Source: a virus. Taken from it: a stretch of 22,557 nucleotides of DNA. The first letter of the stretch is position 1. Each line of letters opens with the position of its first letter. The position numbers and the translations under genes are program-made. The notes under the pieces are model-generated. The model was not told the origin of the DNA and did not search any database. It saw nothing but the letters and a program-made list of their open reading frames with translations. The stretch lies in the IMG/VR virus record IMGVR_UViG_3300031787_000903, positions 1 to 22,557 of that record; one strand, given 5' to 3'. Of this stretch, positions 1,986 to 19,950 are shown piece after piece.

Positions 1986-4900
1986 TTAGGCGGAGAGCTT
2001 CCGCCCGTATCCTTTCGCGATAACGTCAAACGTCCGCGCGACAAATGAGCCGCCCGAGTTGCGGAATGAGACGTCGAATCCCGTCGCGCTCCGGTTTGTG
2101 ATCTCGTAATAATCGCCCGAGCTCATGCCGAAAGCGGTCAGCGCAACGGCCGGCGAGGTATGGAAAGGCTCGGCGAAATCGACGCGGAGTCCGCCGCTTG
2201 CGGTCGTGGTCAGGTTCCCGATGTTTAGGGTTCGATCTTCCATATCCACCGATACGCTGAGGCTCTTCACAAGCCCGTTTACGCTCGAATCAGTAGACGT
2301 AAGAATGAGCTTAAATTCAAACGCTCTTGCGGTGTACGACCCGGCAAAAAACGGTTTCCATTCCGTCCAAGTCGGGGATGCGCCTGGGTCGTCGATGGTG
2401 GTCCGGACGTAGGCGACGGCGTTGGCGTTGTCGATTTTCTCCCCGTCGATATCCGCCCAAGTGTCGATTAAGCCCGCCCGTTGGTCGATAAACGAGCCGA
2501 TATTGTAGACCTCAAAGTCGATAAAGGCTTTCAGGCGGGTCGGGTAAACGGCTCCCAAGTCGATCGAGTTATCGAAGAAATACTCCCCAAAGGGAGCAAC
2601 CCCTCCGATAAAGTCGAAAAGCGGGACCTCGTCGATGGTCGCGAGGAGCTCGTCGATCGTAAGTGCCGAAATCAGCATGAGCGCATTGACCGGCTCGTAT
2701 ACCGTGAGCGCCGTTTTAGATCCGGCAAAGGTCGGACTTTCCGTTACGGTCTCGACGACGTTTAGAGCGAGCGCCTCCGGGACCGTTGTAACGATTAGCG
2801 CCGCATTATCGGACGCGACGCCGGAGGAATCGTAAAACTTGGCGAGGTACGTCCCGGCGAGGAGCGGCGCTTGCGCGCTCGTATGAGTCCCGGCGAGAGC
2901 GGGGAGAATATCGACCGCGTCCGCCCATCGTTGACCCGTCGTCCTCGGAGTATGGCGAATCCGAACCGTACCGCCGACGAGGACGTCGAGGTCGATTGCC
3001 TTGTCCCAAGTCAGATAAGCAAGCCCCTGGTTTGGGATCATGCTGAAGTTTTCGACGTCCGCGGGAGGGGCGCTCCGCCCGTAAATCTCCCGGACGCCGA
3101 GAGCCGGGACCGACCGCGCGCCGAGGGAGTTGAGCGCGTAAACCGTGAACTCATAAAGCCCGGCCCTAGCGTCGAGGATTTCCACCTCGGAGTTGCGAGT
3201 CTCCGGGAGGAGGATTGCGTTTCCGTTGTCGATCCTGTAGCTCACGAGGTAGCTCGTCGCGCCGACCGGAGCAATCCACGACGCCGTAACCTTAACCCGC
3301 ACGTCGTTGTTGTACTCGTAAAGGTTTTCGCTAATCGTCAGATTGATCGGAGTTTCAGGCTTTACGACGAGGCTTGAAATCGTCCGCTCCTCGAGCTCAA
3401 TCCCGCTCTCGACGGCGTCGTATTTCTCCGGCCGGTAGGCAAGCGCGGAGATTTCATAAATCCCGGGCTCGGGCTCGGCGACGGAGATTACCCGGAAATA
3501 TTGATTCTCGATCGCGGGCGTCTGAAGCATCCAAACGCTCGGCGCCCCAGGCGCTTCCGAGAATGGAATCCCCACCGACAAGACGCGACCCGCGGCCGAC
3601 GTTACGGTCCGGACCTCGACCGCTCCCGTCTGGAGCATGACGGAGAGCTCGGCGCCGACCGGGTCGACGGAAAGGTCCGAATCGACCGTGACGGAGTCAA
3701 CCGTACCCGCGGCAATGCGTCCGCCCATGCGCTCGCCGGCCCTAACCGGGTCCGAGATCGCGACGACTTGTCCCGGGCGGACCATTGCGCCCTCGAGCCC
3801 GGTCCGAAAGGAAACGGTCTCGCTCTCGTTTTGCTCGGTGTATAAAAGCCATTTACCGACCCGGATCGCTTGCGCTTCGGACGTGCATCCCATCGCCGCG
3901 ATTTCGGTTTCGATAATCCCGAACCTCGCGACGGCGTCCGCGTCCTCGACGTAAGCGACCTTTTGCCGGTACATATCCGAGGGGTCTAACCACGTTACGA
4001 GCGCGACCGAATGGCGGGCTTTCAGGCTTGCGCCTTGGTAGGTAAACGCTCCGTCAATTACGTTTGCCGCCGTGAACAAATAGGACGGGTCGGTCGGGGC
4101 GTCTTGGCTTAACGTGAGCGTTCCGCCTTGCCAGAAAAGCATACCGCGGAAAATCGCGGCGAGGTTTTGGATAACCTTAAAAGCCTCCTCGCGGCTTTGA
4201 ATGTAGAGGTTAGCCGAGAATCGCGGCTCGAGCCCGCCTTTTCCATTCGGGACGAGCTCGTCGGCATAGCGCCCCGCCTGGTAGAATGCCCATTTATCAA
4301 TCGCGCTCTCGTCGAGGTAGGAGCCCAAGCCATAGCGCGCGGACGTCAGGAGATCGAAGAGGACCCAAGCCGGGTTAGACGTCCAGCTAACGCGGTAGTT
4401 TCCCGTCCAAGGGTTCCCGTCATACTCGAGAGACCCGTCCTCGCGCGTCGTCGTGTTGTCCGGCACCCGGACTTTGATTCCGCGGATATGATAGCCGCGG
4501 GTCGGGAGGGTCGAGAATTGCGAGGCGTCGAGGACCATTCCGACGAGCGCGGAGTTAGGGTAGCGAAGTTTCGACTCGATAATTTCGGTAATGCTCGCGA
4601 CGAAAAGTTTATTTTGAATGTAGGCGCTAGTTGATTCCGCGGCGAGGCGCTCGACCTTAATCGTCCAAGGCGGATCTCCGGCGAGCTTCACGACGTAGGA
4701 ATGCTGGTACGGGCTCGACGCCTTTCCGATGATATATTCCTTCACCTGGGAGGCGTAGGGCCCGCCGTTCGAGGAAAGGGAAATTTCGATCGGTATATCC
4801 GTTCCGCGGATATCGCCGGTATTGATATCGGTGACGGTGAGCGCCGGAATCTGAATCGTGATCCGGACGGAGTCGAGGTCCGCGTTGGTAATCGTCCGGA

Positions 4901-10425: not shown

Positions 10426-11562
10426 TTAGAAGACGGTCAGGACGATTTCGTCGTTACCGCTCACGGGTTGCGCCGTGAAAGGAATCGAGAGGAAATGCAC
10501 CCCGTCGGTGTCCTGGTAGCTCGGGTTTTGAAGCGTGACGGATCCCGCTTCAATCTTGACCTTGTTACCGCCGACCGTGCCTTGGGTAATCGTCATGAGG
10601 CCCGGGGTTGCATTGCGAGCGAGCGTAAAGAAGTCTTTCGTCGCAATGGTCGGCGCCTCGATCAGAAAGGTCCCGGCCGGTTGGCGGTTCAGAATCAGGA
10701 CGTTTTCTTGACCGATCCGCGAGAGATATTGCACGTCGTTCGCGAGGTTCAAGCTCATGCTCTCGAGGACGCCGGCATACCCATGCAGCGAGAAGTTAGT
10801 CGTAAATTGGGTATTGGCGACTTGCGGGAGTTGGAATTTCGAAAAATCCGCGGTCGGTGCGGGCGTATCGGTCGGGGTCGAGTAGAGCCCGGTAAACGTA
10901 AACCGCATGACCGGAATTTGACGCGCGGAGATCGAAAACTCGACCGTCCCGCGAGCTCCGGCCAGGACGTGCCGGACCGAATCAATATGGAAATGCAGGG
11001 TCACGCTCTCGATTCCCTCGGAGACGGGCTTGTATTCAATCCGCTTGCCGACGACCGGGGTCCCGGTTGCGGGCGTGGCGGGCGTACCGACGACCGTAAA
11101 GTCGAAGGTGTTAGCCGTGACGCCGTAGACCTCAAACTCGCCGTTATACTCCGTTTCGCCAGCGCCCGAGATTTTTACGCGGTCGCCGTTCGAGAAACCG
11201 TGAGCGGCGAGGGTCGCGGTTGCGACTTGGCCGACGCGCTCGATATCAATTTCCTCGGTGATCGTGGTCGCCTCAAAGCCACAGGCGCGGAGGAGGCAAT
11301 CGTAACCGGGGAGCTTACCCGTTGCGCCCGAGCCGGCAATCTCGACCTCAAAGTCGATCGAAGCCGACGACGTCGCGAGGAGCGTTTCCGAGTTGCCGAG
11401 ATAGGGGCGGATCAGGTCCCGGGAGACCGTCTCAGCATTCAGAGGGGTAAGGTTCAAGTTCTTTACGAGGATTGCATCGGCCGAGCCCGCGGGGTTCGGG
11501 TCGACGCCGTAGCTGGTTTCGATTTTTGCGAGGACGGTCCGTTTACGAGTGAGCAAGGCCAT
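10426..11562 (-). CDS. Major tail tube protein with inserted domain
   Basis: The 378-residue protein starts MALLTRKRTVLAKIETSYGV, the opening of a widespread tail tube family, and continues with VKNLNLTPLNAETVSRDLIR, LGNSETLLATSSASIDFEVE and LPGYDCLLRACGF. It forms the tube around the tape measure. Residues about 104-175 look like an insertion: ATLAAHGFSNGDRVKISGAG and EFEVYGVTANTFDF resemble the FCCH-like beta domain found in some phage structural proteins. The tube fold resumes with VTLHFHIDSVRHVLAGARGT and a C-terminal sandwich. GGGGG overlaps the upstream stop 10 nt before the ATG. The location between the tail terminator candidate and gpG, before a hairpin, fits a highly expressed tail gene. 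Confidence 0.87.
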   Translation of the reverse strand: MALLTRKRTVLAKIETSYGVDPNPAGSADAILVKNLNLTPLNAETVSRDLIRPYLGNSETLLATSSASIDFEVEIAGSGATGKLPGYDCLLRACGFEATTITEEIDIERVGQVATATLAAHGFSNGDRVKISGAGETEYNGEFEVYGVTANTFDFTVVGTPATPATGTPVVGKRIEYKPVSEGIESVTLHFHIDSVRHVLAGARGTVEFSISARQIPVMRFTFTGLYSTPTDTPAPTADFSKFQLPQVANTQFTTNFSLHGYAGVLESMSLNLANDVQYLSRIGQENVLILNRQPAGTFLIEAPTIATKDFFTLARNATPGLMTITQGTVGGNKVKIEAGSVTLQNPSYQDTDGVHFLSIPFTAQPVSGNDEIVLTVF

Positions 11563-12326: not shown

Positions 12327-14153
12327 TTACAGCGTGTTGTTGCCGCGAGCGAAGGATTCGGCGTGGCGGATCGCGATATCGCAATCCTGCATCGCCACGA
12401 TGCGGACCGTACCGGAGGTCGATCCGCTAAAGGGGTCGACCATGATATCCAGGCCGCTCCAAAATCCGAGCATCATGCTGCCCGCGAAGTCGCCGAAAAT
12501 AACATCGCCGGCGGCGACTTGGTTCGAGGTCAGGACCGGGTATCCGTTGGCCGTTCCGCCCTCGAGGATATAAACCGGGTAACCGGCTTCCTTCGCGGCG
12601 GACTTCAGAGCGCCGGCCATGTTTGCATTTACAATGTAGCGCATACCGGCGACGTCGGCGTCCTTAGAGCTAATCTTGCTCTCGAGACCCACGATCTCGG
12701 CAAACGTCGGGGTTGCGCCGGCAAAGTCGAGCTCTTGAGCCGAGCCAGCGAGGAGACCTTTCAGGCCCATCGGTTGGTTGCTTGCGCCCGTACCGTAAAG
12801 AGCGGCTTGGTCGATCGCGAGAGCCAGGACCGCGGCCAGGTCAGCGCGGACGAGAGCCTCGACGTCGAGGGAGCTTTGCAGCATGAGCTTGCGCGAAATG
12901 TCGGTGTAAGCGCCGACCGTTTTCGGGCTCATCGTCACCTGGTCAAAGGTTTGCTGCGATTCCGTCGCGGATTGACCTTCGCTCAGCCAGAAAGCGGAGG
13001 CGGCGCCGGTATGCTTCGGGATGGAAACGTTACCGACGAGACCGCTCATAACCCGGGCGCCCGCGGCTTGAACGATCGACTTTTTGCGGAGGAGCTCGAT
13101 AAACGACTCGGCGAGGAGGTCGGTCGAGACCGTATAGCCACCGGCCGAAGCGGTACCGGCGACGAGGTCGCGCTTGGCATTCAGGACGTCGGTCGGGACG
13201 AGGAAACCTTGAGGAGCGCGGCCGGTCTTAGCGGCGGCGGCTTCCGAGATTTCGCGCTCGTACTTTGCCGCCTCTTGCGCGCGGCGGTCGCCCGGGTTTG
13301 CCAGGGCGTTAATCAGGCGCATGAAAGAGAATTGACGGATTTCCTTTTCGCTCAGGCCAATGTTTGCGGTCTCAGTTTTCACGATTTTAGCTCCTTGGGT
13401 TTCTTGGATTCTCTCGAGGAAAGCGGCGCGGGATTCATCAAGGCTCTTGCCGCCCTCGATCAGTTGACGGCCAAGGTCCTCAAGGCCGTGCTTTTTTGCG
13501 ATCGCTTCGATTTGAGCGACGCGCGCGCGTTCGGCTTTAACCGCTTCGGCGCCAATTTGTTCCACGTCGACGACCGGGGTCGCGACCGTTTCGATTTTGG
13601 TTTCGGGTTCCATTTCGACTTGCTCCTCGTTTGTTTCGGTTGCGATTACTTCCACGGCGTATTCCTCGCCGCTATCTTCATTCCGGCCGATTTGCGTGGT
13701 CGGATCCGCCGGGACGGAGACGGCGGAGATCTCATGCGGGGTCCAGCGCGTGACGGTGTAAGTCTTGATTCCGTCGCGCTCGCCGGTTAGTTGCATTTGC
13801 TCGATTCGGTAGCCGACGGAGACGTTTCTAAGAATGCCGTCTTGCACGTCCTGAAAGGCGCGTTCTCCGTCCGGGTTCCTCGAGAAACGGACGACGGCAA
13901 CGCCGCGGCCGTCGGCAATCCGAGCGCTCTCGACGACGCCGATTAAACGGTCCGGGTCGTGGTTGAAGAGGAGCGGCGCCCCGTTATTCAGGCGCGAGAG
14001 GTCCGCGGCGCCTGGGGCGTGGGAGAGGATCTCGTTTCCGAAATACCGCTCGACGGGGATCTCCGACGAAAAGGAGAGTTTTACCGTCCGGTTTTCGGAG
14101 TCGGTCTCGGCGCGCTCGAGCGTCGAGGCTCTAAACAGAGTTTTGATTTTCAT
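12327..14153 (-). CDS. HK97-type prohead protease fused to major capsid protein
   Basis: The chosen start is ATG 14153 (MKIKTLFRASTLERAE), with GGGGG 3 nt upstream; the longer frame from 14183 lacks such a site. The 608-residue product joins two head proteins. Residues 1-160 form an S78-family protease: His65 in LLFNHDPDRLIG, Ser112 in ILRNVSVGYRI and HEISAVSVPADP are the expected active-site region. Residues about 160-270 are acidic then charged and helical, like a scaffold (delta) segment. From about 280 to 608 lies an HK97-fold capsid protein, with FLVPTDVLNAKRDLVAGTAS, SAFWLSEGQSATESQ and DQAALYGTGASNQPMGLKGL. The protease would cut itself and the scaffold region away during maturation. 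No separate scaffold gene is present. Confidence 0.93.
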   Translation of the reverse strand: MKIKTLFRASTLERAETDSENRTVKLSFSSEIPVERYFGNEILSHAPGAADLSRLNNGAPLLFNHDPDRLIGVVESARIADGRGVAVVRFSRNPDGERAFQDVQDGILRNVSVGYRIEQMQLTGERDGIKTYTVTRWTPHEISAVSVPADPTTQIGRNEDSGEEYAVEVIATETNEEQVEMEPETKIETVATPVVDVEQIGAEAVKAERARVAQIEAIAKKHGLEDLGRQLIEGGKSLDESRAAFLERIQETQGAKIVKTETANIGLSEKEIRQFSFMRLINALANPGDRRAQEAAKYEREISEAAAAKTGRAPQGFLVPTDVLNAKRDLVAGTASAGGYTVSTDLLAESFIELLRKKSIVQAAGARVMSGLVGNVSIPKHTGAASAFWLSEGQSATESQQTFDQVTMSPKTVGAYTDISRKLMLQSSLDVEALVRADLAAVLALAIDQAALYGTGASNQPMGLKGLLAGSAQELDFAGATPTFAEIVGLESKISSKDADVAGMRYIVNANMAGALKSAAKEAGYPVYILEGGTANGYPVLTSNQVAAGDVIFGDFAGSMMLGFWSGLDIMVDPFSGSTSGTVRIVAMQDCDIAIRHAESFARGNNTL

Positions 14154-14159
14154 ATGCCC

Positions 14160-14172
14160 CCGATTTGATCGG
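14160..14172 (-). promoter_or_regulatory. Small hairpin next to the capsid gene ribosome site
   Basis: The minus strand reads CCGATCAAATCGG, a 5-bp stem with a 3-base loop, immediately before the GGGGCAT that leads into ATG 14153. Its 3' arm overlaps the G-run that would serve as ribosome site. It could modulate translation of the capsid gene; the stem is short, so this is tentative. Confidence 0.35.
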
Positions 14173-14206
14173 TTTAGGATCAAGCGTTACACGCTCAATT
14201 TTCCCA

Positions 14207-14244: not shown

Positions 14245-14266
14245 GAAAAAGCTCAGTTAGTTGAGC
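14245..14266 (-). terminator. Candidate terminator at the end of the beta-helix gene
   Basis: The minus strand reads GCTCA-ACTAAC-TGAGC followed by TTTTTC. The 5-bp stem overlaps the stop codon region of the preceding gene and is followed directly by a five-T run. The stem is short, so termination would be partial at best, but stem plus U-run orientation matches the transcription direction. Confidence 0.5.
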
Positions 14267-15468
14267 GCCTCGACGATGAAATTGAGCTCGGTTACTAGGA
14301 GGTTGTTGGCGTTTGTCGCGTTTGCGATAAAGCCCTCGATAAAGTCGTTGGTTGCGAGCTCGACGATCGCCTGGGAGTAGAAGTTTTCGTTTCGTGATGT
14401 TCCCGAGGTAGTGGCTTGCGATTCGCTTTCGGCGATCGTGGTTCCGTTCTTTGCAGCACGAACGAGAATAGTCGTGGTGTTTGTTGTAATGGCTTGTGCC
14501 GAACAAGAGAGAGTGACGCGAAATGACCGCGTGATTCCGCCAGTGTAAGTCAGTCTATTGTTGGTATGGGAGAATTTTTGATTGATCGCGCTTGGCGAGG
14601 TCACGCCCTCGATCTTTTCAAAAACCCCAGTAGTCGCGATTCCGTTCTGCAGTGTGTTGTTGAAGTAAAACGCTTGCCCGATCTCGGCCGAGTTCCCGAC
14701 TCCTTTCACGTTAGTGAAAAGGCTCCGGTTGTCATTAAAGGCAATGCCGGCCGTATAGGTTGCGCCGCCCGAGAAATTGACTGTATCGAGGATATATCCC
14801 TCGACCGGGATAGACGCCGACGTGCTGACGTTGATTGCGGTTGCCCCCCCGAAAGCGACGAAGCTCGAATACGTCACGCGGATTCGCCTGGTAACGATCA
14901 GGGTCGACGGGAAGTTGAGCGTCGTTTGACCGGCGACTCCCGAGAAAAGGCATTGGTTGAAACCGATTGTCCCAATCGTCCCGTTAAAGGTCATCCCCGA
15001 GCTATTCAGGAGCGCGCAATCGCTCATAATGAAATTGCTATAGTTCTGAATCGTCCCGACGCCGGAGCCGCCTCCGGTTGAATTGCAGTCGAGAAAGTTG
15101 ACCCCGAACCAATCAATAGCCGCCGTCGCGGTTCCGGCGCCGTTAAGGTCCAGCGCGGTCCCGTGAGTCAGCGTTACGTTTCGCATCGGGAGGCTATATT
15201 GCGAGGTCAGGAGCGCGGTACTCGCCGAGAGTCCGGTTGATTTTAGGATGCAGTTTTCGGAGGACCCGCCGATGATGACCGTATTTTGACCGGCGACGAG
15301 TCGATTTCCGGCGAGGTCAATCGTGCCCGTAATGAAATAAGTAAGGTTATCAGCGAGGGTAATCACGCCGGTGACGGGTTCCGGAAAATCCGCGAGCTTG
15401 TCGACGAAAAAGATCTTTTCCGACTCAAGCCATTTACTAAGTTTAGCGTATCCTTCCAGAAATCCCAT
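14257..15468 (-). CDS. Predicted beta-helix virion appendage protein
   Basis: I do not recognise a named family for this 403-residue protein. After a short helical opening (FLEGYAKLSKWLESEKIFF) it shows successive short strands typical of a right-handed beta-helix: LTYFITGTIDLAGNRLVAGQ, VIIGGSSENCILKSTG, RNVTLTHGTALDLNGAG, GTIQNYSNFIMSDCALLNSS, RIRVTYSSFVAFGGATAINV. The last 100 residues (RSFRVTLSCSAQAITTNTTT, ILVRAAKNGTTIAESES, NDFIEGFIANATNANNLLV) resemble a small jelly-roll or C1q/TNF-like trimer cap. No catalytic residues can be assigned, so adhesion or decoration is as likely as glycan cleavage. No Shine-Dalgarno precedes the ATG, which lies 11 nt after a GC-rich hairpin. Its place between portal and capsid suggests a head-associated appendage, but it could be a tail spike. 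Confidence 0.82.
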   Translation of the reverse strand: MGFLEGYAKLSKWLESEKIFFVDKLADFPEPVTGVITLADNLTYFITGTIDLAGNRLVAGQNTVIIGGSSENCILKSTGLSASTALLTSQYSLPMRNVTLTHGTALDLNGAGTATAAIDWFGVNFLDCNSTGGGSGVGTIQNYSNFIMSDCALLNSSGMTFNGTIGTIGFNQCLFSGVAGQTTLNFPSTLIVTRRIRVTYSSFVAFGGATAINVSTSASIPVEGYILDTVNFSGGATYTAGIAFNDNRSLFTNVKGVGNSAEIGQAFYFNNTLQNGIATTGVFEKIEGVTSPSAINQKFSHTNNRLTYTGGITRSFRVTLSCSAQAITTNTTTILVRAAKNGTTIAESESQATTSGTSRNENFYSQAIVELATNDFIEGFIANATNANNLLVTELNFIVEALN

Positions 15469-15479
15469 TCAGTGAGTTA

Positions 15480-15509
15480 GGGGAGCGGCAAGTTTCCCCG
15501 CCGCCCCCC
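15480..15509 (-). promoter_or_regulatory. GC-rich stem-loop before the beta-helix gene
   Basis: On the minus strand GGGGGGCGGC pairs with GCCGCTCCCC through a 10-base loop, a 10-bp stem with one G-U pair. It lies in the 54-base gap between two appendage genes and ends 11 nt before ATG 15468. No U-tract follows (TAACTCACTGA), so it is a weak terminator candidate. It may instead control translation or stabilise RNA ends. Confidence 0.6.
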
Positions 15510-15522
15510 CGTCCTTTCTCGG

Positions 15523-16995
15523 TTAGATAATGGCGCGCTTGCAGTAGGTCACGCGGATCGTATCGCCGACGCCGAGCTTTTCAGGGCTCGGGTTAACGAG
15601 CGAGCCGGCAAACACAAGGCGAGTCTTTCCGGCAACGGTGGTCAGGGTATAATCCCCATCCGATCCGTCGTAGAAATGCAGCGCCAGGCGGTCAACGAAA
15701 GCCGAGATCGACTCGGAAATCGCCGTATTCTGGAGCTCGACGTAACCCGCGGCGAGGATCCCCGCGTTCACGACGAATTTCTCTTTGACGAATTGGAGCG
15801 ACGCAAGTTCCAGCGCGTCGACCCGGCCGTCGAGAGCCGCCTCCGCCGCCTCCGCCCGGTTCTTTTCGGTCAGGACTTCTTGGTCGGTGTATGCCGCGGC
15901 GATCGTGACGGCTTCTTGAGCCGCCGCTTCGAGTTGCCCTTTATTGATCGCATCGGCCGGATTAACGCCGTCAGCGAGGCCGGTAATCTTCTTTGTTCCG
16001 ACCGCGATATCAGCGCCCGAGAAGGAAAACGACGCGCCCTCAATTTTAAAAAGGGCCGGGTTTTCGTTGCCTTGCTCGATCTCGACCTTGCTACTAGTAA
16101 CCTGAATCCAACCGAATTCGCCGGTAATCTCGTTCGTTGCCTGGAGCGTAGCCTCGCCGAGTCCAAGCGTGTGCTCTTGCGTCGAAAAGGTGTCAGCGGT
16201 AACGCTATTCGCCCCCTGAATGGAATTTTGACCCATCAGGAGGTTGCCCGTCATCGGGCGCGTTCCGTCGAGTTTCAGGAAAGTGAGATCCTCCGCCTCG
16301 AGAGCGGCGCTTTCCTGATCGATCAGAGCGGAAGCGGCGGCGACTGCGTCCGCTTCTGCCTGGTCCGCGTAAGCCTCAATCGCGGCTTGGCGGGCGGGCG
16401 TGTAGTAGAGGTTAGTCGAGCCGCCCTCGGGGACGAGGTTGGTCGAGTAGTCGCCGGATTGAGCCGTGACGACCCCGTTACGGCCGAAAACAGAATCTAC
16501 AGCGCCAGAGGTAATTTGGACGTAAGCCGAGCCGCTCCAGCGGTAGCATTTGCCCGAATCAATGGCGACGTAGATTTTGCCTTGCTCGCCCGTGACCGGG
16601 AATGCGGCAAGGTTCGCATACTCGAGCACGTCGTCGACGTAGGAGGGGAGGTATTGCTCCGCGATCAAGCCCGACCCGTTGAGGGGCGCGATTCCTCCGG
16701 GTTGCCCCTTGGTCGCCTCAAGCGCCGAGAGGTCGGAGGCGACTTGCGAGATTTCTCCGTCGAGGCTCGTAACTTCGGCGTCCAGTTGCGACTTGCGAAC
16801 GAGCCCGTCCGGGGTCGAGGCGTCGGAAGAGACTTCCGGGACGGACGAGAATTTAACGACGTCGTTACCGTCGACTTTGACGATTTCGATCTCGCTGAGT
16901 CCATCGGCGGACTTGCTCTTAAATGCCTGGTTATTCTCGAGGACGACTTTAGAGCCGTCGAGCGTCTCGATATACTTTGGTTGAATTAATGCCAT
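15523..16995 (-). CDS. Fibre-like structural protein (490 aa)
   Basis: This 490-residue protein looks like a trimeric phage fibre but lies in the head region. The N-terminus (MALIQPKYIETLDGSKVVLE) may be the attachment part. A first coiled coil spans about residues 70-95 (RKSQLDAEVTSLDGEISQVA). It is followed by PLNGSGLIAEQYLPSYVDDV, GKCYRWSGSAYVQIT, DSVFGRNGVVTAQSGDY and NLYYTPARQAAIEAYADQ, all frequent in tail fibres. A LDGTRPMTGNLLMGQNSIQG block and GTKKITGLADGVNPADAINK precede a second coiled coil near 365-400. The last 85 residues (KEKFVVNAGILAAGYVELQN ... LGVGDTIRVTYCKR) look related to the C-terminus of the next upstream gene product. GGGAG lies 10 nt before the ATG. An accessory virion fibre is the best guess. 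Confidence 0.82.
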   Translation of the reverse strand: MALIQPKYIETLDGSKVVLENNQAFKSKSADGLSEIEIVKVDGNDVVKFSSVPEVSSDASTPDGLVRKSQLDAEVTSLDGEISQVASDLSALEATKGQPGGIAPLNGSGLIAEQYLPSYVDDVLEYANLAAFPVTGEQGKIYVAIDSGKCYRWSGSAYVQITSGAVDSVFGRNGVVTAQSGDYSTNLVPEGGSTNLYYTPARQAAIEAYADQAEADAVAAASALIDQESAALEAEDLTFLKLDGTRPMTGNLLMGQNSIQGANSVTADTFSTQEHTLGLGEATLQATNEITGEFGWIQVTSSKVEIEQGNENPALFKIEGASFSFSGADIAVGTKKITGLADGVNPADAINKGQLEAAAQEAVTIAAAYTDQEVLTEKNRAEAAEAALDGRVDALELASLQFVKEKFVVNAGILAAGYVELQNTAISESISAFVDRLALHFYDGSDGDYTLTTVAGKTRLVFAGSLVNPSPEKLGVGDTIRVTYCKRAII

Positions 16996-17014
16996 TGTTC
17001 TTTTTCTCCCTTGG

Positions 17015-17524
17015 TTATTCGTAAATCAGGCGGACCCTGTCGCCTGATTCTAGGATCCCGTCGAGCGTTAGTCCGGCCCAGCTGAGAGAATTTCCGGTTA
17101 GTTGATAGTCAATCCCGGGAAAAAGAGCGCCGCCGCCGCCGGCGACGTCCACGACGAGCCTCGTCGGATCGGTCAGGGGATTCGAAAGCGTGAGCGACTT
17201 GCTCGAGACCTCGGCGGGAGTAAGCGCGCGATGCTCGACGAATCGGTCCGGGAGCGTCACGGGTTGCCATTGCGTACCGTCCCATCGGTAAACCTGATTA
17301 GGGCTCGGAGGCGTAATCCTGAAAGTCTCCGTCTCGCTCTCGTAAGAAAGCGGCGGGGAAATCGTAACGTCCTCGAAAGATTTTCCGCGGGGACCCTGTA
17401 GTCCCTGAGATTGCACGACGACGTTTTGAATTTCGGCGAGGACCTCGACGATAACGTTAGTCTCGTCTAGGACGGTAACGTTGTTCGCGGCCTGATTTTC
17501 GACCGAAACGACGAAATCCGTCAC
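17015..17524 (-). CDS. Structural protein with collagen-like stretch and shared C-terminal domain
   Basis: The 169-residue protein starts at GTG 17524, overlapping the previous stop as GTGA. The N-terminal 45 residues are Val/Asn/Glu-rich strands (NNVTVLDETNVIVEVLAEIQ). A short collagen-like GLQGPRGK follows, then YRWDGTQWQPVTLP, a segment common in tail fibres. Residues about 90-169 (RFVEHRALTPAEVSSKSLTL ... LVVDVAGG ... GIDYQLTGNSLSWAGLTLDG ... ESGDRVRLIY) form a beta-rich domain that recurs in virion proteins. It appears related to the C-terminal 85 residues of the neighbouring 490-residue protein. I know no firm function; decoration of the head or fibre attachment is likely from context. 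Confidence 0.8.
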   Translation of the reverse strand: MTDFVVSVENQAANNVTVLDETNVIVEVLAEIQNVVVQSQGLQGPRGKSFEDVTISPPLSYESETETFRITPPSPNQVYRWDGTQWQPVTLPDRFVEHRALTPAEVSSKSLTLSNPLTDPTRLVVDVAGGGGALFPGIDYQLTGNSLSWAGLTLDGILESGDRVRLIYE

Positions 17525-17889
17525 AGAGTAACCTCGGGGGAGATCGAAGCAATACCCTCTACCAAACGCTCAACCTCGCCCGTATCGGTAACGAGCTCGA
17601 CGTCGTAAGCGTAGCGGGTCGGGGTTTTCTTGTATGAGACCGCCGTCTCGACCGGGATCGCCGCGGTTTGCGCCGGCGTCAGTTTCATTTTGAACTTGCC
17701 GGCGAGAGGCTCGTGGATTTCGAAAGAAAACGACGCAATGACGGAGCTTGCCGAGTAGGTTTCGCGGATTTGCCCGCGGAGCGAGAATCCGGTCAGGTCA
17801 ATCGGCGTTCCCTCGTGGTCCTTCACGGTGAAGATTTTGAGAAAGCTCGCGCCTTGCTCGATTGTCAAATTGAGTTGTCCGGCGCTCAT
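17521..17889 (-). CDS. Small BppU-N/Ig-like virion protein
   Basis: This 122-residue protein has the pattern of BppU N-terminal-like (Ig-fold) phage proteins: LTIEQGASFLKIFTVKDHEG, PIDLTGFSLRGQIRE, a central FSFEIHEPLAGKFKMKLTP strand pair, and a C-terminal YAYDVELVTDTGEVERLVEG followed by ISPEVTL. In baseplate protein BppU this domain attaches receptor-binding parts to the virion. Here it follows the portal gene (ATGA overlap) and is coupled to the next gene (GTGA), so it may anchor the downstream fibre-like proteins. The fold call rests on motif pattern; the anchoring role is inferred. Confidence 0.8.
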   Translation of the reverse strand: MSAGQLNLTIEQGASFLKIFTVKDHEGTPIDLTGFSLRGQIRETYSASSVIASFSFEIHEPLAGKFKMKLTPAQTAAIPVETAVSYKKTPTRYAYDVELVTDTGEVERLVEGIASISPEVTL

Positions 17890-19391
17890 TCTTCGCCCCC
17901 TTGCCCCTCTTCAATGCTCGCAGGCGTCGGGCGTTCTTGTTCTTCATGGGGTTGTTCGGCAACGACGGTCGTGTCGAGCTCGACGCCGAGGCTCTCGGCG
18001 AATTCAATCTCGCGTTGACGTTGCGTCATGATCTCCTCGAAATCCCCACCCGATTGAGCGACGACGTCGGCGACCGTAATAAAGCCGGCTTTGATTGCCT
18101 CTTTATACGCGGCGACCTCCTTCACTGGGTCGACAAAAGCCCAACCCCGCGGGAGCCAGCGCGCCGCGGACTGATATCGCTCCGGTTGAATCTCATAGCC
18201 CGGGAGCGAAAGCGCGCCCGAGAGGGTTGCCATTTCGAGAAACTCCTCAAAAACGCGTTGATGTAAGTTTGAAATGAGCCAGGATTGCAAAACCCGCCAA
18301 TGGTCGCGGTCCTCGAGGAGCGAGAGGCGAGAGCTCGAGTAGTTGCTTTGGCTATAATCACGGCTCAGCGACTCGAACGAAATTCCACAGCTAGCAGAAA
18401 TTCCCCTCAGCATTACCCGCATGAAAGGCTCGAATTGGTTGCCGGGTCGGTTGAGTTGCGGGACGACGACTCTCTCGCCTGGGTTCAACTGCTTAAATAC
18501 GCCGGGTTCAAAGTCGGTGACGGCTTGCCCGTTTTGCTCGCCCTCCGCCGGGAGTTCGCCCTCTGGGGTTTCGATAAATCCCATGAGCGCCGCGGTTGCT
18601 CGAGCCGCTACAACCTCGGATTGCTCATAGCCTTGCATCTGATGAATGCGGGAGATCGCGGCCGAGAGCCAGGGAATCCCGCGGGACTGGTCCGGTCGCT
18701 CGGTAATGTAAAGATGAATCATTTCGTCCGCGGGAATCCGGATCCGCTCGACCCGCGGCGATGCGCCGGCGCCGAAAGTGTAGTCGCCGGGATGGTTCTG
18801 CAAAACGTGGTACGCTTGCGGGCGTCCCCAGGCGTCTCGCTCGATACTCATTCGGATTTCGTTCCCGTTGCTCGCTCGGGCGTTATAATTCTCGTCGAGC
18901 ATATCGCTCTCGATAATCTGAAGCGCGAGCGGGACCCGGGATCGTCCCATTTGTTGCCGGACGATGCGGACGAAAACCTCGCCGCTCTCGGCGACGGACG
19001 AAATCAAGAGGCGCTCGATATCGGCAAAGCTAAGGGTTCCCCCGACGTGGCAAGAGTCCTTACGTTGCCATTCGACCCATTTAGATTCGATCGCGTCGTT
19101 AATGGCGGTTTCGAGGCGCCGGGTCCGGGGTTGCCGGACTTGGGATTGCATTTGTACGCCTTGGCCGACGACGTTGTTTCGAATCGTCCGGATCGCTTGC
19201 CGGGCGTAGTCGTTGTTTCGGACGAGGTCGCGCGAGCGGTTCCGGAGCTTGCTCAAGCTCCCGCGGATCTCGGAATCTTGGGATGCGGAGTTAGCCGTTA
19301 CCCAATCGCCCGTTAGCCTCGAGGTCAAAGCGCCCTGAAACGCGCGGGCTTGCTTGCGTTGCTTTTTGCCAAACGGCCAGAATCGCGCCAT
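17886..19391 (-). CDS. Portal protein, lambda gpB family
   Basis: The 501-residue protein matches the lambda-family portal. It has the basic start RFWPFGKKQRKQARAFQGAL, then NRSRDLVRNNDYARQAIRTI and NNVVGQGVQMQSQV. The middle has IERLLISSVAESGEVFVRIV, IIESDMLDENY and the ERPDQSRGIPWLSAAISRIH motif. RVMLRGISASCGISFESLSR and DYSQSNYSSSRLSLLEDRDH are also classic portal signatures. The acidic C-terminus (EEGQGGEE) is flexible. The portal forms the dodecameric DNA gate of the head. Lambda gpB is 533 residues, a close length. It abuts the gpW-like gene and overlaps the next gene as ATGA. Confidence 0.96.
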   Translation of the reverse strand: MARFWPFGKKQRKQARAFQGALTSRLTGDWVTANSASQDSEIRGSLSKLRNRSRDLVRNNDYARQAIRTIRNNVVGQGVQMQSQVRQPRTRRLETAINDAIESKWVEWQRKDSCHVGGTLSFADIERLLISSVAESGEVFVRIVRQQMGRSRVPLALQIIESDMLDENYNARASNGNEIRMSIERDAWGRPQAYHVLQNHPGDYTFGAGASPRVERIRIPADEMIHLYITERPDQSRGIPWLSAAISRIHQMQGYEQSEVVAARATAALMGFIETPEGELPAEGEQNGQAVTDFEPGVFKQLNPGERVVVPQLNRPGNQFEPFMRVMLRGISASCGISFESLSRDYSQSNYSSSRLSLLEDRDHWRVLQSWLISNLHQRVFEEFLEMATLSGALSLPGYEIQPERYQSAARWLPRGWAFVDPVKEVAAYKEAIKAGFITVADVVAQSGGDFEEIMTQRQREIEFAESLGVELDTTVVAEQPHEEQERPTPASIEEGQGGEE

Positions 19392-19946
19392 TTACTTAAA
19401 CCTCACATACAGAGAGCCCGGGTCCGGGAGACCGTTGGCGAGTTTCGCCGCCCGGCGCTCGCGCGCGACGTCCTGTTTCATTTTGGATTCGAGCGCCATG
19501 AGATCGGCGAGGGGGATTTTCCGGAGCGACCGATTGCCGATCATGTATTCCGCGACCGCGCCGCCGGAGACGATTGCGCGGATTGCGGCTTGAACCGCGG
19601 CGAGGTCTTTCTCCGCCTGGGAGCGCCCGTCGTAAGGGGCGGCTTGCTCGGCCAGGTTCGGCTTGACGGTAAAGGTTCCCCCCCCGACTGTAATCCGCTC
19701 GGTCCCGTCTGTCGCGTGGGATTGCCAATAGTAAACGCCGGGCTCAAGAGCCGCGCTTTCCGACGTCGTAATTGCCAAGCGCCACCCTCCGGTCTCTGGA
19801 ATCCCGGTCAGAGTAAGGCTCGACGCTCCGGCGATTGCTACAGTGAGCGTCCAGCCGGGGGAGGAAATTGTCCCAAAAACATCGGAAAATGGTTCGATTT
19901 GCCAAGTTTTGGAGTCGCCGGCGACGATTTCGGCGGGGAAAGTCAT
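19392..19946 (-). CDS. gpW-like head-tail joining protein with N-terminal Ig-like domain
   Basis: The chosen start is ATG 19946, with GGTGA 4 nt upstream; a TTG lies one codon earlier. The 184-residue product has two parts. Residues 1-100 are beta-rich with a BppU-N/Ig-like pattern: FPAEIVAGDSKTWQIEPFSD, GWTLTVAIAG, GWRLAITTSESAALEPGVYY and GGGTFTVKP. Residues about 108-184 resemble lambda gpW: AEKDLAAVQAAIRAIVSGGA, YMIGNRSLRKIPLADLMALE and KMKQDVARERRAAK, with a C-terminal GSLYVRF like the GPAGFYV end of gpW. gpW (68 aa) stabilises packaged DNA and prepares the connector for gpFII. Gene order terL-W-portal matches lambda. Confidence 0.82.
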   Translation of the reverse strand: MTFPAEIVAGDSKTWQIEPFSDVFGTISSPGWTLTVAIAGASSLTLTGIPETGGWRLAITTSESAALEPGVYYWQSHATDGTERITVGGGTFTVKPNLAEQAAPYDGRSQAEKDLAAVQAAIRAIVSGGAVAEYMIGNRSLRKIPLADLMALESKMKQDVARERRAAKLANGLPDPGSLYVRFK

Positions 19947-19950
19947 CAAT

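Follow-up and report, generated by a model that had tools for sequence, protein, structure and literature searches.

The p132/LtfC family of proteins anchors lateral fibers in T5-type phages (PMC10038345, PMC10713586). At the T5 tail tip, p132 is described as a dodecamer that surrounds an extra tube ring, p140 (PMC10038345), and in DT57C the N-terminal strands of LtfA are reported to join the sheets of LtfC (PMC10713586). The T5 study regards p132, together with p140, as a landmark restricted to large T5-like phages; for lambdoid phages it anticipates another way of anchoring fibers (PMC10038345). At the neck, the 12 Ig domains of the vB_DshS-R4C portal adaptor encircle the structure outside the capsid, and in the account given by its authors the adaptor has no similar structure (PMC10276861). 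The Sf14 whisker protein, gp30, is described as fixed to the neck through the adapter gp37, and the Sf14 gene table places the gp30 gene directly after the portal and ahead of the capsid. The neck fiber of cyanophage A-1(L) is described as a gp82-gp81-gp80 assembly of an anchor, a repeated bead and a larger distal trimer (PMC10966104). Here, we describe a p132-type gene in a lambda-type phage, where it opens a four-gene insert in the head operon.

Four genes separate the portal and capsid genes

We analyzed a virus record of 22,557 bases (the window), whose annotated genes all occupy the minus strand and follow the lambda order. The small and large terminase, adaptor and portal genes are followed by the insert A122-B169-C490-D403 (17889-14257, minus strand), a fused protease-capsid gene, an Hc1-like stopper and the tail terminator, and further downstream by the tail tube, the tape measure, gpM/L/K/I-like proteins, gpJ and a tail fiber. 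A first-pass annotation of the letters had marked a four-gene island between portal and capsid, and all four ORFs (4/4) are on the same strand, lack internal stops and fill the stretch. The features used below are:

19392..19949, minus strand: neck adaptor with an Ig-like N-terminal domain and a gpW-like part; proposed docking ring
17886..19391, minus strand: portal protein of the lambda family (Phage_portal_2, Pfam PF05136, 4.7e-108); upstream flank of the insert
17521..17889, minus strand: A122, 122 aa, p132/LtfC-like Ig-fold protein; proposed collar or anchor ring
17015..17524, minus strand: B169, 169 aa, with a beta-strand-rich N-terminus, collagen triplets and a C-terminal junction domain
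15523..16995, minus strand: C490, 490 aa, trimeric-fiber-like stalk with a YadA-type coiled coil
14257..15468, minus strand: D403, 403 aa, beta-helix and TNF/C1q-like jelly roll; proposed distal tip
14251..14266, minus strand: weak terminator-like hairpin with a T-run and a 5-bp stem, on the D403 stop codon and before the capsid gene
12327..14183, minus strand: fused protease-major capsid protein (PF04586, 4e-12; PF05065, 1.5e-46); downstream flank of the insert

The portal and A122 genes overlap by 4 bases, as do A122 and B169, as in one operon. For the protease-capsid gene, an ATG at about 14153 is a likelier start than the listed TTG. Terminator-like hairpins with a T-run occur at 17 sites in the window, against 11.3 expected from shuffles. 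The gap from capsid to Hc1 is 57 bases, and the Hc1 and terminator genes overlap. Both gpJ (phrog_31, 4.9e-252) and a tail fiber gene (phrog_4492, 8.6e-53) are present, and the suggestion that the island adds an adhesion cassette to these two systems is supported.

Searching IMG/VR with the capsid gave 73 loci, including L007, the near-identical contig also recorded as L006; the GenBank relatives S-LBS1, S-CBS1 and Bas97 were added to this set. Of the relatives obtained through the capsid or by name, 49/49 that have both genes hold no ORF in the portal-capsid gap, and a portal search contributed a further 4/4, so that the two genes adjoin in 53/53, confirming that the window departs from the usual order. 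The insert is common only to the window and the near-identical contig L006 (10,382 bp; protein identity 99-100%), which may come from the same sample and is therefore weak evidence against an assembly artifact. Neighboring sites differ as well: two ORFs separate capsid and Hc1 in 61/69 relatives having both genes, and the window carries neither, and 51/65 relatives having Hc1 and terminator carry a single ORF of 169-216 aa between them (on the opposite strand in one of the 51, L034). Compared with the maps of its relatives, the window thus has four extra genes at one place and lacks accessory genes at neighboring places. S-CBS1 (NC_016164) carries an mtd-annotated gene between its capsid and neck genes (L003, 6664-7725), another appendage gene in a head block. 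A search for prophage relatives found no capsid relative in genome contigs and one partial D403 relative, in a Rhodobacteraceae MAG.

A122 is a p132/LtfC-type Ig protein

A122 matches phrog_1084 (6.5e-28) and the T5-type family phrog_3304, 'L-shaped tail fiber protein assembly' (6e-16). Against PDB chains, its profile matches the DT57C/T5 entries 8hqz (7.7e-10) and 7qg9 (1.6e-8), for which phmmer alone gives 0.0047 and 0.007; the top profile match is 26dk_M (4e-10), from an entry named 'Structural protein', which is absent among the fold matches listed for A122. The AF2 model (pLDDT 92.9) resembles p132 with Z 14.6 (DT57C) and 14.1 (T5), and the best p132/LtfC match aligns 121/122 residues at an rmsd of 2.5, corresponding to an Ig fold along the entire chain. 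Profile and fold both identify A122 as a p132/LtfC-type Ig protein. The model also resembles baseplate proteins of Douge (Z 11.0), TP901-1 (BppU, 8.4), 80alpha (8.4) and NF5 (8.2), and neck proteins of P74-26 (9.2), Bas63 (connector, 9.0), Sf14 (9.0) and R4C (adaptor, 7.8), with the Sf14/Bas63 collar aligned at its residues 70-166 over 96 residues (rmsd 2.4). Unrelated Ig-like folds reach Z of about 8 for two filamin domains and mostly 6-7 for the remainder. Among the listed fold matches, those from phages come from the tail tip or the neck, with the tail tip at least as well represented, and the absence of a family from these lists is no evidence against that family. No match to the Sf14/Bas63 collar sequences was found by phmmer (E ≤ 10) or profile (E ≤ 1). 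The first-pass description of A122 as Ig/BppU-like fits this fold; as no Pfam family matched at E ≤ 1, A122 was not assigned to BppU_N, and judging from the modeled similarity to TP901-1 it may work like BppU without belonging to that Pfam family.

One pattern scan recovered A122 relatives at at least 510 viral loci, of which 80 were kept. Homologues adjoin the neck genes gp13/14/15 in cyanomyoviruses and lie with neck genes in L135, L136, L150 and L202; others are found near capsid genes (L109, L158, L185, L186, L204), in L158 and L204 following the capsid gene and a small decoration-like gene. In L175, the homologue lies between TerL and a portal-like gene, six genes ahead of a capsid gene. 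A122-like genes are located downstream of gpJ in 8 loci (L153, L157, L159, L193, L195, L209, L210, L211), many near-copies from one lineage follow podovirus-like structural genes, and many further loci were placed in no class. These mixed neighborhoods permit both a neck and a tail-tip location. Proteins encoded closely downstream often start, by eye, with a region rich in short beta-like repeats, and a simple pattern finds a collagen-like motif within the first 130 residues of 20/58 distinct downstream proteins. A tree of 67 A122 relatives did not place the window copy and was therefore not used to choose between these two locations; the rows with the shortest path to that copy are L140, L204 and L158, which is a hint only. 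Two loci have additional features: the terminase-like ORF of L175 (3391-5529) is unusually long (712 aa), perhaps through an intein-like insert, and is separated from the portal-like gene by A122 and a tiny B-like gene, and L161 carries two A122-like genes (3835-4206 and 10704-11063), each beside large structural genes.

The window adaptor carries a related Ig domain

The adaptor of the window matches the R4C head-to-tail joining protein (8gtd_M, 6.7e-10) as well as phrog_5774 (4.6e-46), phrog_118 (1e-4) and phrog_1084 (2.5e-5), and by the last of these profile matches its Ig domain is related to A122. In relatives, phrog_1084 matches 9/13 records in frames that, at 190-204 aa, are as long as the adaptor, and in those compared with gene maps (S-LBS1, S-CBS1, L010, L014, L073) the matched position is the adaptor gene. 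The window and R4C share a homologous adaptor with an Ig attachment domain, but in R4C the portal (_005) is followed by the capsid (_006), with nothing in between by gene numbers.

A second comparison is provided by the collar-whisker proteins of Sf14, Bas63 and FelixO1. FelixO1 ORF54 matches gp30, the whisker of Sf14 (1.1e-100), and the 'Collar protein' of Bas63 (7.3e-105), and on the FelixO1 map its gene lies directly 3′ of the portal gene, ahead of protease and capsid. These systems (ORF54/ORF55 in FelixO1) resemble the insert in their place between portal and capsid and in an Ig domain of Z 9.0, but their whisker is assembled from a pair of small proteins and lacks a beta-helix tip, and no sequence similarity to A122 was detected.

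B169, C490 and D403 are exchanged as a cassette

The N-terminus of B169 consists of short beta-like repeats followed by a collagen stretch; the stretch named in the first-pass annotation is real, but comprises only three Gly-X-Y triplets. The C-terminal domain of B169 is common to other cassettes and, by profile comparison, is probably related to that of C490 (prob 87.6, E 3.5e-6), a relationship that suggests repeated junctions along the fiber. A Pfam match of B169 to DUF6087 (4.3e-05) scored under the family cut-off and was rejected, and a search with B169 matched no phage record. C490 matches Pfam YadA_stalk (9.4e-07) together with phage fiber and 'head decoration' PHROGs, in line with the earlier fiber-like label. 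The 'head decoration' names, which cover short fiber stretches only, were rejected as proof of capsid binding. In other phages, C490 relatives adjoin D403 relatives.

The AF2 model of D403 (pLDDT 93.0) comprises a beta-helix at about residues 14-261 and a jelly roll at about 259-403, the architecture anticipated from the letters. The helix is most similar to Geobacillus virus E2 ORF18 (Z 20.1) and to many tailspikes (Z 15-20), and the jelly roll, of TNF/C1q type, to BxpB/ExsF (Z about 16). Among viral predicted structures D403 has a full-length match (TM 0.88); its sequence and profile gave no match in the PDB. D403 may bind or cleave glycans. D403 residues 305-391 match phrog_24754 (1.2e-8), as does S-LBS1 A09 (2.2e-95), and hhalign pairs the D403 tip with the fiber encoded between Hc1 and terminator in relatives (prob 97.5, E 5.6e-12, 68 columns). 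By this alignment, the tip is homologous to a short fiber from the neck genes of relatives, the gene for which is absent in the window. In the L009 member, this 200-odd-aa protein has an N-terminus in common with phage fibers and spikes. The short jelly-roll fiber (S-CBS1 gp10, S-LBS1 A09 and a 212-aa IMG/VR gene) belongs to the same phage group and the neck gene block and shares its tip with the D403 C-terminus, but it is a small single protein, encoded mostly between Hc1 and tail terminator, without a beta-helix and without A122. In Vibrio Zobellviridae (L133, L134), the interval from capsid to Hc3 genes contains distant D403 relatives, one with a TNF-like annotation.

Besides L006, D403 relatives were found at 53 loci. 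Identity reaches 82-85% in L080, L081, L082, L095 and L101, where nothing matches the portal or capsid of the window, and in several loci relatives of B169 (C-terminal part) and C490 lie upstream. The cassette again lies between portal-like and capsid genes in L080 and after the capsid gene in L101. B-C-D is thus exchanged as a cassette among phages with other head genes. Of eight B-C-D-bearing records checked, phrog_1084 is present in one (L094) and absent from 7/8, so that A122 and the B169 N-terminus look like a local adaptor and the remainder like the traveling part. The notion that every B-C-D cassette uses A122 was rejected on the same count.

A proposed neck fiber

The insert strongly appears to encode an appendage, and it is a variant of known fiber-anchoring systems at an unusual place, with clear signs of exchange. 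Its best explanation, to which we give about even confidence, would be an A122 collar on the neck that holds B-C-D fibers. In such a structure, copies of A122 would form an Ig-domain collar around the site where portal and adaptor meet, next to the adaptor's own related Ig domain, and the N-terminal beta-strands of B169 would join the A122 sheets, as LtfA does with LtfC in DT57C. The collagen stretch of B169 would run outward to C490 as a trimeric stalk, capped by D403 as a beta-helix and jelly-roll trimer that could bind or trim a surface glycan; this contact may aid reversible adsorption ahead of the action of gpJ and the tail fiber. The cassette would take the place of the short jelly-roll fiber in the neck block of relatives. 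The anchoring role that had been suggested for the Ig-like protein gains support from its nearest solved relatives, which are fiber-anchoring rings. T5 p132 and DT57C LtfC share with A122 the Ig fold (Z 14), a significant profile match and a downstream partner whose N-terminus is rich in strands (probably so in B169), but their ring is a tail-tip structure placed around a tail-tube-like ring and holds other fiber proteins, whereas the A122 gene follows the portal within a lambda-type head operon. The A-1(L) neck fiber, as described, is likewise built from several proteins, but its pentadecameric base is another protein, and in the assay its authors report, no host binding by the distal domain was seen.

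The neck fiber is favored because A122 belongs to the fiber-anchoring p132/LtfC family, because the Sf14/Bas63 neck whisker has the same fold and gene place, because the window adaptor is R4C-like with an Ig domain related to A122, and because A122 homologues adjoin neck or capsid genes in other viruses; the homology of the D403 tip to a neck-block fiber whose gene is missing here, and the D403-like gene between capsid and Hc3 genes in Vibrio Zobellviridae, point the same way. It is weakened because the closest structures belong to the tail tip, because 8 loci have their A122-like gene downstream of gpJ, because the Sf14/Bas63 Z of 9 is little above that of unrelated Ig folds and comes with no detected sequence similarity, and because B-C-D relatives exist without A122 and the tree leaves the window copy unplaced. 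The two tail-tip observations, together with the Douge, TP901-1 and 80alpha matches, would suit a side fiber in which a p132/BppU-type A122 ring sits near the distal tail with B-C-D attached, its genes merely residing in the head module. We regard this as rather unlikely, since A122 lies in the head module and overlaps the portal gene, the tail-tip genes of the window are intact and include their own fiber, neck or capsid genes are the neighbors of other A122 homologues, and T5 p132 is described as encircling the extra tube ring p140 (PMC10038345), whereas one tail-tube-like gene was seen in the window. The proposition that A122 must be a tail-tip protein because p132 is one was rejected. The first-pass annotation had also raised the case that homologues are tail fibers moved by rearrangement; p132 and the loci after gpJ agree with it in part, while the neck is favored overall.

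The same annotation had proposed head fibers or capsid decorations, a claim that found no support and that we hold to be improbable. Head fibers are exemplified by phi29 gp8.5 and the RcGTA spikes. In this version, the appendage would occupy many sites on the capsid surface and replace a lost 126-aa protein encoded after the capsid gene in relatives. The window does lack both capsid-Hc1 ORFs, the 126-aa protein of relatives is a candidate decoration (phrog_5707, function not annotated), C490 matches 'head decoration' PHROGs, and A122 homologues follow a decoration-like gene in L158 and L204, but the phage fold matches of A122 are tail-tip or neck anchors, no capsid-binding domain was recognized in the insert proteins, and the C490 matches are limited as noted above. 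More improbable still is a recent, perhaps non-functional insertion, or an assembly artifact that joined the cassette of another phage into the head operon. The arrangement is unique against the 53 relatives compared, the GC content of D403 is 0.532 against 0.588 overall, and the near-identical second record may share reads with the window; against this, the four ORFs are intact, with 4-base overlaps at the portal and A122 genes, the portal and capsid genes are both intact, and GC is near that of the rest in three of the four insert genes.

Beyond the neck fiber itself, we tentatively suggest that the T5-type Ig collar may be a widespread plug-in anchor, used either at the neck, on the homologous Ig ring of the adaptor, or at the tail tip, and that lambda-type phages might swap fiber cassettes onto this collar while keeping the jelly-roll tip family of the lost neck fiber. 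If so, the neck would be a second, exchangeable host-binding site, and if the rings sit there, host contact and host range would also be set by cassettes outside the tail module. Such cassettes are now annotated as 'tail fibre' or 'hypothetical'.
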